Below, piece after piece: positions 16,004 to 19,309 of a DNA stretch of 44,783 nucleotides. Source of the stretch: Clostridia bacterium (GTDB lineage: Bacteria > Bacillota > Clostridia > Oscillospirales > CAG-272); assembly GCA_017462485.1 (NCBI GenBank), contig JAFTRA010000011.1:1-44783 (forward strand), read 5' to 3'. Positions within the stretch are counted from its first letter, which is position 1, and every line of letters begins with the position of its first letter. The notes under the pieces were generated by a model. It worked only from the letters and a program-made list of their open reading frames with translations. It was not told the origin of the DNA and searched no databases. A program made the position numbers and the translations under genes.

Positions 16004-16231
16004 GTTGAATATTATTCCTTTCATGATTTATATTCGGCACATTTCTTACCTTAATAAATACTATCACACAAACTAACTTCGGTCAAGAGAGATTTTTTGA
16101 AAATTGCTGTGTGTGGAAAAGATGATTTTACAAAATAATACATAAATGTAATATTTATTCAGAATATATGCAAAAAACAGCTCTGTTTTTACGCGATATT
16201 CTAAAAAAATTCACTTTTTTGCAAAAAAGCC

Positions 16232-16260
16232 TTGACAAACAGAAAATCATTTGCTAAAAT
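16232..16260 (+). promoter_or_regulatory. Promoter of the T-box-regulated importer operon
   Basis: TTGACA (16232-16237) and TAAAAT (16255-16260) with a 17-nt spacer. Transcription would begin near 16267, just before the T-box stem I. The remaining part of the 16004-16639 gap between this promoter and pepT is AT-rich and holds nothing else I can name. Confidence 0.85.
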
Positions 16261-16281
16261 GCTTCTATCAAAAACGTTTGA

Positions 16282-16558
16282 GCAGAAAGTAGTAACCGTT
16301 TTTTCGGTTTGCAGAGAGCTGCCGCTTGGTGCGAGGCAGTAATCGGGGTTCGGCGAATTCATTCTGCGAGTTGCGGGCTTAAAGCGGCGCTTTGCGAGTA
16401 GGCCTTGCCGGGTACGACCGTTATATCGTTACGAGTGTAGATTTGCACTTAATGAGGCTCATAGCCGCGAGGCGTGAGTGAAGCAGAGTGGTATCACGGT
16501 GAATTTTATATTTGCTGTCCCTGTATTTTCCTTTTTGTAGGAGAATGCAGGCTTTTTT
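16282..16558 (+). promoter_or_regulatory. T-box riboswitch with apparent UUC (Phe) specifier
   Basis: Stem I closes with GCAGAA (16282-16287) and TTCTGC (16362-16367); AACC (16294-16297) pairs with GGTT (16347-16350). Between them lie a 6-nt 5-prime loop and an 11-nt 3-prime loop, the same sizes I recall for B. subtilis glyQS, which puts the specifier at 16358-16360: TTC, preceded by GAA and followed by A. The distal hairpin CTGCC/GGCAG (16319-16339) carries the GGTGCGA loop, with AGAGAG before it. The antiterminator T-box element AGAGTGGTATCACG is at 16485-16498; its bulge TGGT would pair with an A-C-C-A tRNA end, as in tRNA-Phe. A terminator follows. An uncharged tRNA-Phe would switch the operon on. 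Confidence 0.87.
16520..16558 (+). terminator. T-box-controlled terminator
   Basis: CCTGTATTTTCC (16520-16531) pairs over 12 bp (two G-U) with GGAGAATGCAGG (16540-16551), followed by CTTTTTT. It is the alternative to the antiterminator of the T-box leader. Confidence 0.85.
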
Positions 16559-16639
16559 ATTTGTTAATTTACAGACCGCACATCAGAAATTTTAAGCGGT
16601 ATGCAAGTTATATATAAACTATTTTCGGAGGAAAAGAAA

Positions 16640-17575
16640 ATGAAAAAACTTTTATCACTTGTATTGGCGATTACGCTTTGCTTTGGTGTTTTTGGCGCGC
16701 TTACGTCTTGCTCTGACAAGGCTGATTATACTGTCGGTATATGCCAGCTTATGAAGCACGACTCTCTCGACGCGGCAACCAAGGGCTTTATCGACTCTCT
16801 TACCGCAGAGCTTGAAAAAGCCGGCAAGACCGTTGAGTTTGACACTCAGGTTCCCGGTGACGCAAACCTTTGCTCCACGGTAATAAATACCTTTGTGTCG
16901 AAGAACGTTGATCTTATCATGGCTAACGCTACTCCCGCTTTGGTAGCGGCTGCGAACGCAACCGCTTCAATTCCCGTTCTCGGAACCTCTGTTACCAGCT
17001 ATTCCGATACCTTCAAGAACGGTGTTCCTGATAACGTTTCCGGAACTTCCGACGGAGTATCCTTTGAATCCCAGGCGCAGATGATGATAGACACTCTCGG
17101 TCTTAAGTCAGGCGACAAGGTTGGCGTTATCTACTGCTCCAACGAGTCTAACTCTCTGTTCCAGTTCAATGCCGTAAAGGCTTATTTCGATACCAAAGGT
17201 ATCGTTACTACGGCTTATACCTTCTCGGAGACAACAGAGCTTCAGACGGTAGCCGCAAAGGCAGCTGACGAGTCCAAGGCTATTTACGTTCCCTCGGATA
17301 ACACCGTTTCCGCAAACGAATCGGTAGTTGATACCGTTTGCACCGAAAAGAAGGTTCCCGTATTCACAAGTTACGGTGGAAGCATATGCTACGTAAGCCT
17401 TGCTATTGACTACTATCAGCTTGGTGTAGAAACCGGAAAGATGGCAGCTAAGGTGCTTCTCGGTGAAAAGTCCGTCGCAGACCTCGGTGCTCCCGATTCG
17501 AACGTTCTCACTCCTACCGTTCAGTATAACGAAGAAAAGTGCGCGGCTCTCGGAATCACCGTTCCCACTAACTGA
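16640..17575 (+). CDS. ABC importer substrate-binding lipoprotein (TrpX-like)
   Basis: This 311-residue protein belongs to the ABC_sub_bind family (COG2984 type), extracellular receptors for amino acids such as tryptophan. It has a lipoprotein signal with cysteine at residue 24 (LTSCS). The mature protein opens YTVGICQLMKHDSLDAATKGF and has two periplasmic-binding-like lobes, with VDLIMANATPALVAAANAT and PVLGTSVTSY in the first and KSGDKVGVIYCSNESNS starting the second. The start at 16640 is fixed by GGAGG eight bases before it; the upstream ATG at 16601 lacks a signal peptide. The T-box upstream suggests phenylalanine or another aromatic amino acid as substrate. First gene of a three-gene operon. 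Confidence 0.92.
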   Translation: MKKLLSLVLAITLCFGVFGALTSCSDKADYTVGICQLMKHDSLDAATKGFIDSLTAELEKAGKTVEFDTQVPGDANLCSTVINTFVSKNVDLIMANATPALVAAANATASIPVLGTSVTSYSDTFKNGVPDNVSGTSDGVSFESQAQMMIDTLGLKSGDKVGVIYCSNESNSLFQFNAVKAYFDTKGIVTTAYTFSETTELQTVAAKAADESKAIYVPSDNTVSANESVVDTVCTEKKVPVFTSYGGSICYVSLAIDYYQLGVETGKMAAKVLLGEKSVADLGAPDSNVLTPTVQYNEEKCAALGITVPTN

Positions 17576-17595: not shown

Positions 17596-18522
17596 ATGGG
17601 TTTTCTTAATGCTATCCCCGGCGCCGTGGCGCAGGGGCTTATATGGGGTATAATGGCTATAGGCGTATATATCTCGTACAGAATACTAGATATTGCTGAC
17701 CTTACGGTCGATGGCTCTATATGCACGGGCGCTTGCGTATGCGGCGTACTTATAACGAGCGGTGTTCCTGCGTGGATAAGTATCTTTGTAGCCTTTCTTG
17801 CGGGCGCGGTGACGGGAATTATAGCAGGTCTATTAAATACGGCTTTCGGGATTCCGTCTATTCTTGCGGGTATTCTTACTCAGCTTATTCTTTACTCGGT
17901 GAATCTAAAAATACTCGGCGGAAGGTCTCTTTTGCAGATAGACTCCAGAAAGTACAGTCTTATACTTAATCAGCTGAGTAACGTTAAGTCTATAATTATG
18001 GCGGTAGCTATAATTACTTTACTTATTATAGTTCTCTGGCTCTTCTTCTATACCGAGGTGGGTCTTACCCTTAAATCCACCGGTGATAACCCTCATATGA
18101 GCCGTGCGCAAGGTATAAACGTAAGCTTCAACAAGGTTTTAGGACTTGCTATATCTAACGGTATAGTAGCTCTTTCTGGCGCTCTTCTTGCGCAGTATCA
18201 GGGCTTTGCGGACATAAATATGGGACGAGGCGCAATAGTTATCGGTCTTGCGGCTATATTCATCGGTCTTTCGGTATCTCTTAAGATAAAGCCGAACTTC
18301 GTCGTATCTCTTATCGGCGTAGTTGCGGGTGGCGTTGTGTACTATCTTGTATATACGTTCGTTATATTCCTTGGTCTTGATACCGACCTTCTTAAGATGC
18401 TTTCGGCTATCATAGTTGCGCTCTTCCTTGCTGTTCCTTACGTAAAGGCTAATTATTTTAAAAAATATAAGCACGAGCCTGCAGCAGAAGAGATTACGGA
18501 GGGAGGCGAGGCAAATGCTTAA
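17596..18522 (+). CDS. ABC importer permease (TrpY-like)
   Basis: A 308-residue membrane protein of the BPD_transp_2 (LivH/RbsC-like, COG4120) permease class, with about eight to nine helices. Characteristic stretches are YRILDIADLTVDGSICTGA near the start, NTAFGIPSILAGILTQLILYSVNLKILGGRSLL, and GDNPHMSRAQGINVSFNKVLGLAISNGIVALSGALLAQYQGFADINMGRGAIVIGLA split over the middle, which contains the EAA-like coupling region. It lies 20 nt after the binding protein and overlaps the ATPase gene by 8 nt, so the three are made together. The acidic tail (EEITEGGEANA) is normal for the group. Confidence 0.92.
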   Translation: MGFLNAIPGAVAQGLIWGIMAIGVYISYRILDIADLTVDGSICTGACVCGVLITSGVPAWISIFVAFLAGAVTGIIAGLLNTAFGIPSILAGILTQLILYSVNLKILGGRSLLQIDSRKYSLILNQLSNVKSIIMAVAIITLLIIVLWLFFYTEVGLTLKSTGDNPHMSRAQGINVSFNKVLGLAISNGIVALSGALLAQYQGFADINMGRGAIVIGLAAIFIGLSVSLKIKPNFVVSLIGVVAGGVVYYLVYTFVIFLGLDTDLLKMLSAIIVALFLAVPYVKANYFKKYKHEPAAEEITEGGEANA

Positions 18523-19309
18523 AATAAAGAATCTTCATAAAACCTTCAATCCCGGTACGGTAAATGCTAAAAAAGCGCTTAACGGCTTGAATCTTACTCT
18601 GAATGACGGTGATTTCGTTACGGTTATCGGCGGTAACGGAGCGGGAAAAAGCACTATGCTTAACGCTATTTGCGGAGTATGGCGCCCAGATGCGGGAAGC
18701 ATCGAAATTGACGGTGTTGATATCACAGGTATGCCCGAATATAAGAGAGCTAAATTTTTCGGACGTGTTTTCCAAGACCCTATGAAGGGAACCGCACCGG
18801 ATATGGAGATTGCCGAGAATCTTGCTATCGCTGCAAGAAGAGGCAAAAAAAGAAAGCTGATTTGGGGTATAGCGAAGGGTGAGAGAACAATTTATCGCGA
18901 GAAGCTCCGAGAGCTTGACCTCGGACTAGAGGATAGACTTTCGAGCAAGGTGGGACTTCTTTCTGGCGGTCAGAGACAAGCGGTAACGCTGCTTATGGCA
19001 ACACTGGAGGAGCCGAAGCTTCTGCTTCTTGACGAGCATACGGCTGCCCTCGACCCAAAAACCGCTGCAAAGGTGCTTGAAATAACCGAGAAAATAGTCA
19101 CCGAGAAAAATCTTACCACACTTATGATAACTCATAATATGCGTGACGCCATAAGGTATGGCAATCGACTTATTATGATGCACGAGGGCAGAATTATCGT
19201 TGACGTCTCTGGTGAGGAAAAGAAGAATCTCACGGTCGAGTATCTTCTTGAACTCTTCAGCAAGGCGAGCGGAAGCGAGTTTTCGAGTGATAGAGCAATA
19301 TTGGCTTAA
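18515..19309 (+). CDS. ABC importer ATP-binding protein (TrpZ-like)
   Basis: The 264-residue ATPase (COG1101 type) powers the importer. It shows Walker A GGNGAGKST at 39-47, a Q-loop in FGRVFQDPMKGTAPDM, the ABC signature LSGGQRQ near residue 150, Walker B LLLLDEHTAALD with the catalytic Glu, and the H-loop LMITHNM. The FQDPMKGT Q-loop and DEHTAALD are typical of the ATPases that pair with the TrpX/TrpY type. It overlaps the permease gene by 8 nt, and a strong terminator follows at 19375-19412. Confidence 0.95.
   Translation: MLKIKNLHKTFNPGTVNAKKALNGLNLTLNDGDFVTVIGGNGAGKSTMLNAICGVWRPDAGSIEIDGVDITGMPEYKRAKFFGRVFQDPMKGTAPDMEIAENLAIAARRGKKRKLIWGIAKGERTIYREKLRELDLGLEDRLSSKVGLLSGGQRQAVTLLMATLEEPKLLLLDEHTAALDPKTAAKVLEITEKIVTEKNLTTLMITHNMRDAIRYGNRLIMMHEGRIIVDVSGEEKKNLTVEYLLELFSKASGSEFSSDRAILA

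Follow-up and report, generated by a model that had tools for sequence, protein, structure and literature searches.

The window analysed here, a stretch of 44,783 nucleotides, is contig 33 of a genome of 2.23 Mb in 49 contigs, and it carries a three-gene ABC importer operon behind a regulatory leader (Table 1). The substrate-binding protein, the permease and the ATPase all score above the curated cut-offs of PF04392, PF02653 and PF00005 (for PF04392, 129.2 against 25.9 bits), and 18 of 19 relatives have this same gene order, which in the remaining one is interrupted by a contig end. Apart from the binding protein, no PF04392 protein was found in the genome.

Table 1. Features of the leader and of the importer operon, in positions of the window
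Feature	Position	Strand	Basis
Sigma-70-type promoter, TTGACA-17 bp-TAAAAT	16232..16260	+	sequence pattern
T-box leader, RF00230	16268..16525	+	83.1 bits, E 1.5e-18
Helix below the specifier loop, 5' strand GCAGAA	16282..16287	+	pairs with 16362-16367, covariation
Specifier loop, 5' strand AGUAGUAA, includes the AGUA of the Rfam model	16288..16295	+	RF00230 alignment, sequence
Stem I, distal part with AGAGA side and terminal GGUG loop	16313..16336	+	RF00230 alignment, covariation
GAA preceding the specifier	16355..16357	+	RF00230 alignment, sequence
Specifier UUC (phenylalanine), followed by A16361	16358..16360	+	invariant in 29 readable orthologous leaders, 32 rows
Helix below the specifier loop, 3' strand UUCUGC	16362..16367	+	covariation
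CCGUUA of stem IIA/B	16418..16423	+	RF00230 alignment
Antiterminator with T-box sequence; acceptor-binding UGGU at 16489-16492	16485..16523	+	alignment, folding, sequence
Intrinsic terminator, hairpin 16520-16551 and U-run	16520..16558	+	folding
Ribosome-binding site GGAGGAAAAG	16627..16636	+	sequence
Substrate-binding protein, ABC_sub_bind (TrpX/CD0873/VC1101-like), predicted phenylalanine binder	16640..17575	+	PF04392, 129.2 bits
ABC permease	17596..18522	+	PF02653, 108.6 bits
ABC ATPase	18515..19309	+	PF00005, 97.3 bits

When positions 16150-16700 were scanned with cmscan, the leader aligned with the T-box model of Rfam (RF00230, class I transcriptional T-box) over its full length, model positions 1-219 of 219, from stem I to the antiterminator. 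The score of 83.1 bits is about 10 bits short of the gathering score of 93, which is a threshold for listing and detection and not a part of the structure, and for this reason the window as a whole yields no listing in a default Rfam scan. The leader also differs from the model in that its specifier directly follows GAA. The importer operons of 17 of the 19 relatives are likewise preceded by a T-box, and 12 of these 17 score above 93. A chance origin was rejected on the E-value and the 29 readable orthologs, and it is close to certain that 16268-16525 is a T-box. The small minus-strand Rfam matches RalA and NPPA-AS1_3 were far below their gathering scores and were taken as chance. The first-pass annotation, made from the letters of the sequence, had described a T-box with promoter, stem I and competing terminator directly before a three-gene importer, and had proposed running the leader through the Rfam model; the full-length RF00230 match, the TTGACA/TAAAAT promoter and a terminator with a z-score of -6.3 bear this description out.

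The terminator and U-run together have a folding energy of -18.9 kcal/mol (z -6.28), which none of 200 shuffles equalled. It has positions 16520-16523 in common with the antiterminator, so that the two structures are mutually exclusive, and the antiterminator has a UGGN bulge, read as UGGU in all 29 orthologous leaders. The support for stem I is comparative and not energetic, judging from folds and alignments of the sequences. Folded in full, the leader has a stable minimum free energy structure (z -3.2), but this differs from the T-box fold and does not show stem I, and neither stem I (z -0.2) nor the antiterminator (z -0.8) is unusually stable when folded alone. Across the 29 orthologous leaders, the helix flanking the specifier changes on both sides in four of its six pairs, with 97.1% of cells paired, and the distal stem I helix covaries in three of five pairs; in both scored helices together 98.4% of cells pair, against 22-51% with the partners slid. 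The specifier loop, the AG-rich bulge and the distal loop of stem I were found through the cmscan alignment and these two covarying helices, and beyond the Rfam alignment we take the names AG bulge and distal loop to apply to this leader. The internal loop sizes of 6 and 11 nt that had been annotated do not hold: given the GCAGAA/UUCUGC helix, both strands measure about 8 nt by eye (AGUAGUAA and CGAAUUCA).

The 3' strand of the specifier loop reads GAA-UUC-A (16355-16361) and is closed by GCAGAA/UUCUGC (16282-16287/16362-16367). One base usually separates GAA from the triplet in RF00230 (GAA-N-NNN), and on the window leader alone this usual register would give UCA, a serine codon. The importer clade to which the window belongs has 32 rows (the window, L008-L025 and L119-L131; SH-aLRT 100), and UUC was read in all 29 of its readable leaders, in columns that are invariant in their alignment; this count rests on automatic labels, none of them made by hand. 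Unreadable were L021 and L123, which are identical and lack stem I, and L125, at a contig end, while L131 became readable only once its gene start, initially set too far upstream, had been corrected by a rule devised after this leader failed. The register is GAA-UUC in 21 of the 29 and the usual one, GAA-G-UUC-A, in the other 8, so that the homologous columns name UUC whatever register is chosen for the window. The A-U pair adjoining the loop is invariant in the clade and hence uninformative on the register, which only the orthologs decide. UUC is followed by A in 16 leaders and by C in 13. By this comparison the specifier reads as UUC, at 16358-16360. In L021 and L123 the antiterminator and terminator upstream of the binding-protein gene are kept and stem I with the specifier is gone, the appearance being that of a decaying T-box.

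On control genes the specifier caller had good precision and poor recall, and at a threshold of 11 it reads three of the six leaders of the window's own genome (L002, L003 and L006). Five tyrS leaders were read, all as UAC (two as GAA-UAC, three with one extra base); an antiterminator is present at 9 of 30 tyrS loci of the family, and the caller missed 4 of those 9. From 25 pheS loci (the own genome and 24 relatives) four leaders were read, all as UUC (the own genome, L080, L083 and L084), and at L058, L063 and L073 Rfam finds a T-box that the caller left unread. None of the family-sample pheS leaders was read rightly, the calls at L272 and L289 being false. Ten of 17 family pheS alignments were read by eye, and in each of them UUC stands where the loop strand ends, with A, C or G as the next base; a C in that place is thus nothing unusual for a Phe box of this family. 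An antiterminator is present at 28 of the 30 best-scoring family-sample pheS loci, with another type of stem I as far as seen; the view that T-boxes seldom precede pheST in this family was withdrawn on this count.

Six T-boxes were found in the genome. One of them (L002; G000:C8:11423-11721, minus strand) precedes pheS (TIGR00468) and, by eye, a pheT-like gene. It has the same GAAUUCA as the window leader and is 81.7% identical to it over 252 aligned bases; for 17 leaders from other species the identity to the window leader is at most 76.2%. Pairwise identities were used here, the leader tree having resolved almost nothing. Since L002 is closer than the leaders of other species, while the pheS T-boxes of the family are, as far as seen, of the other stem I type, it looks as if this leader was copied within the genome, in either direction. 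The remaining boxes, read by eye, each fit their gene: GAAG-ACC-A before thrS, GAAU-AUC-A before ileS, GAAC-GUA-G before valS and AAA-UGG-A before a trpB-like gene. The last (L001; G000:C6:1596-1830, minus strand) has a UGGC bulge and is the sole UGG box among the six.

A phenylalanine-specific T-box calls for UUC or UUU in the specifier place and a matching genomic tRNA, and the genome holds two copies of tRNA-Phe(GAA), both with discriminator A (A73). ARAGORN was run on 30 of the 41 tRNA places of the genome; tRNA-Trp has G73, as has the one tRNA-Ser examined, and the one tRNA-Thr examined has U73. The bulges follow these bases, with UGGU of the window fitting A of tRNA-Phe, UGGC of the trpB-like leader fitting G73 and UGGA of the thrS leader fitting U73. 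The match of UGGU to A73 is support and not proof, because TBDB permits G:U at this place, and in 46% of Trp T-boxes it is a U that faces G73 (PMC7778990); the annotated fit of the bulge to discriminator A thus stands for tRNA-Phe(GAA), but is not exclusive to it. The phenylalanine specifier followed by A, as first annotated, was upheld by the covariance-model alignment, a check set beforehand, and by the comparison of homologous operons, and it agrees with the sister leader before pheS, with the discriminator and with the contrast to UGG and UAC leaders.

The solved relatives of the binding protein at E-values up to 0.001 are CD0873 (6hni, 8e-34), VC_1101 (3lkv, 3e-27) and SP1069 (3lft, 3e-26), which bind tyrosine, phenylalanine and tryptophan, respectively, and two positions are described as setting the preference: Glu-263 (Tyr) versus Ala, and Gln-284 (Trp) versus Tyr (PMC6816091, where CD0873 was assayed by differential scanning fluorimetry). 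At the Gln-284 position of SP1069 the window protein has Tyr, as in the phenylalanine binder, and thus not the pocket residue of TrpX. At the other position, occupied by Glu-263, Ala-246 and Ala-268 in CD0873, VC_1101 and SP1069, it aligns a Tyr (TSYGG) in a loop three residues shorter and so lacks the Glu of the tyrosine binder; this column is the less certain of the two as it adjoins an alignment gap. All 32 rows of the window clade share the Tyr in the shortened loop, as does the sister L132, and the xDN loop and other conserved family motifs are kept in the window protein. At the L132 locus no antiterminator was found, and a terminator-like hairpin remains.

The comparison was extended to 170 importer loci. 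Automatic calls with a canonical antiterminator gave UUC at 35, UGG at 25, UAC at 10, a register-ambiguous triplet at 4, another triplet at 3 and none at 93. Inspection by eye relabelled L144 and L220 as UAC, L197 as UUC and L100 as UGG; it also read 12 of 16 uncalled loci with an antiterminator (7 UGG, 5 UAC), leaving L021, L123, L125 and L185 unread, and the four ambiguous loci were assigned to the triplet that a purine follows (2 UUC, 2 UAC). The final labels are UUC at 37 loci, UGG at 33 (25 automatic, 8 by eye) and UAC at 19, and no antiterminator was seen within 650 bases at 77 of the 170. Two leaders of the set have additional elements: L022 has two antiterminator-terminator modules in tandem, about 110 and 223 bases before the start of the binding-protein gene, one of them with no stem I of its own in view, and in one relative (L019:3260-3430) a Clostridiales-1 RNA (105.6 bits) lies between the T-box and the importer gene. 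The window clade occurs in 14 of 295 family-sample genomes and in 18 records from elsewhere, mostly ruminant and deer gut MAGs, with at least one gene (L021/L123) in both.

In a quick tree of the importers (L213 left out of the trees for a misplaced gene start; 47 of 160 inner branches open) at least seven changes among UUC, UAC and UGG are needed, compared with 36-45 in 50 label shuffles. All that the shuffles show is that the labels go with relatedness, and the whole window clade is a single event in this count. The residues at the two pocket positions, the Glu-263 position first, were tabulated for 86 distinct aligned rows, some genes being present under two locus ids. Tyr/Tyr goes with UUC (29 rows); Ala/Tyr (13), Ala/Gln (1) and Ser/Asp (1) go with UGG, as does Glu/Tyr with NF or NL before TDN (18); Glu/Tyr with a VP, IP or EP motif goes with UAC (16) or UUC (7), and Asp/Tyr with UUC (1). 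The proteins with N[FL]TDN instead of [VI]PTDN (L028, L034-L036, L040, L042-L051, L180, L189 and, by eye, L031) thus have UGG in 18 readable leaders and a Glu/Tyr pocket, not the Ala/Gln of SP1069, and they may bind tryptophan in another way.

It is unlikely, though it deserves consideration, that the sensor is one for tRNA-Phe and the importer a general aromatic one (Phe/Tyr), the sensor reporting the amino acid that is depleted first; the first-pass annotation had named a wider import of aromatic amino acids under Phe sensing as its alternative. Outside the window clade eight binding proteins behind UUC boxes have Glu (7) or Asp (1), and 16 behind UAC boxes share the Glu (distinct rows, some labels by eye), so that the link between sensor and pocket is not a strict one. 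The tree neighbours L199 (UAC) and L219 (UUC) have binding proteins that are 83.5% identical and appear to record a recent switch of T-box specificity, and such sister groups suggest that the sensor can switch without a large change in the pocket. However, the window clade is uniform, with UUC in 29 of 29 readable leaders, and has another pocket residue in a loop three residues shorter. Moreover, genome G209 encodes two importers, L052 with a UAC leader and Glu in the pocket and L131 with UUC and of the window type, and between them the labour seems to be divided. Importers that differ in specifier also occur together in other genomes, UGG with UUC in G109, G030, G178, G088 and G261 and UGG with UAC in G064 (labels by eye for L197 in G088, L222 in G261 and L193 in G064).

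That the operon is simply a tryptophan importer of the usual TrpXYZ kind, its box having drifted or been misread, is very improbable. The sole NCBIfam match of the binding protein is indeed TrpX (NF041285, E 8.4e-49), and UGG T-boxes before trpX have been shown experimentally in Streptococcus suis, where switching is supported by reporter assays and mutants (PMC9382623). But the score is 166.4 bits against an equivalog cut-off of 390, a strict cut-off as only 2 of 299 phylum-sample genomes pass it. The pocket has Tyr where SP1069 has Gln-284, which taken alone is weak evidence against TrpX because 31 of the 33 UGG-box proteins share this Tyr. All 33 UGG boxes that were read stand on other clades, and every one of the 29 readable orthologs has UUC. 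On these grounds the TrpX identity was rejected.

Least probable of all is that tRNA-Ser is sensed through UCA, a reading that was rejected: opening the A-U pair adjoining the loop does give a 3' loop strand of the usual length, GAAUUCAU, in which GAA-N-NNN names UCA, and the usual register yields serine codons throughout the 21 short-register orthologs (UCA in 8, UCC in 13), but it gives UUC in the other 8 of 29, the base after UCA or UCC would be U and no purine, the twin leader precedes pheS, and G73 of the one tRNA-Ser examined would make a wobble pair with UGGU.

Computation shows the T-box with its specifier, the matching tRNA, the terminator and the operon, and also that the pairing is conserved; for the T-box family in general, a switch driven by uncharged tRNA is established. 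It is probable that uncharged tRNA-Phe opens a phenylalanine-preferring ABC importer through this UUC T-box. The specifier (16358-16360) would pair with the anticodon GAA of tRNA-Phe and the bulge UGGU (16489-16492) with the tRNA 3' end ACCA; uncharged tRNA-Phe would stabilise the antiterminator, the terminator at 16520-16558 would not form, and the operon for the binding protein, permease and ATPase would be transcribed. With charged tRNA-Phe the terminator would form. Sensor, pocket and family suggest that the importer most likely takes phenylalanine by preference, and phenylalanine is favoured over tryptophan because related gut bacteria keep the UUC arrangement together with the changed pocket. 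The first-pass proposal that the operon imports phenylalanine thus finds indirect support, in a protein that falls below the TrpX cut-off and in a predicted pocket with neither the Gln linked to tryptophan nor the Glu linked to tyrosine. A prephenate dehydratase domain is present in the genome, which may therefore make phenylalanine, and import need not be its sole supply.

A wider history can be proposed, on which we are evenly divided. The same importer chassis would have been repeatedly re-addressed among Trp, Tyr and Phe by change of the specifier, the window clade would have fixed both sensor and pocket for phenylalanine, and in the genome of the window the importer leader would have been copied before pheST to give a two-operon phenylalanine regulon. 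With the same even balance of confidence, the Glu of the tyrosine pocket would in this history have been replaced by Tyr in the shortened loop, with UUC in every readable leader of the clade.

One of the closest known systems is trpXYZ of S. suis, which also has a T-box and terminator before a transporter operon and a binding protein of the same family (PMC9382623). It differs in having UGG and a UGGC bulge where the window has UUC and UGGU, and the window binding protein scores under the TrpX cut-off and lacks the Gln found in the tryptophan pocket of SP1069. In the Bacillus cereus group a Phe T-box also stands before an amino-acid importer, but this is an NSS secondary transporter, of another family than the ABC importer of the window; in the transporter table of that survey the Phe T-box is found only on the NSS transporter, and those for Trp on ABC and NSS transporters (PMC2494555). 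A Phe T-box on an importer of the present family was not found in the literature search, whose scope left aside subscription papers and TBDB entries, and in the portion of PMC3766115 consulted no mention was found of importers behind Phe T-boxes. For trpXYZ, UGG T-boxes are already in print, and the UUC case on this importer family was not found in the literature searched.

Going by a protein search alone, one would name this importer after tryptophan (NF041285) or call it 'sugar-family' (the name of 6hni). The reading of the T-box supplies a testable ligand, phenylalanine, for the window clade. Moreover, the specifier changes, at least seven and including L199/L219, make a natural series in which it can be asked whether the regulator changes before or after the specificity of the transporter.
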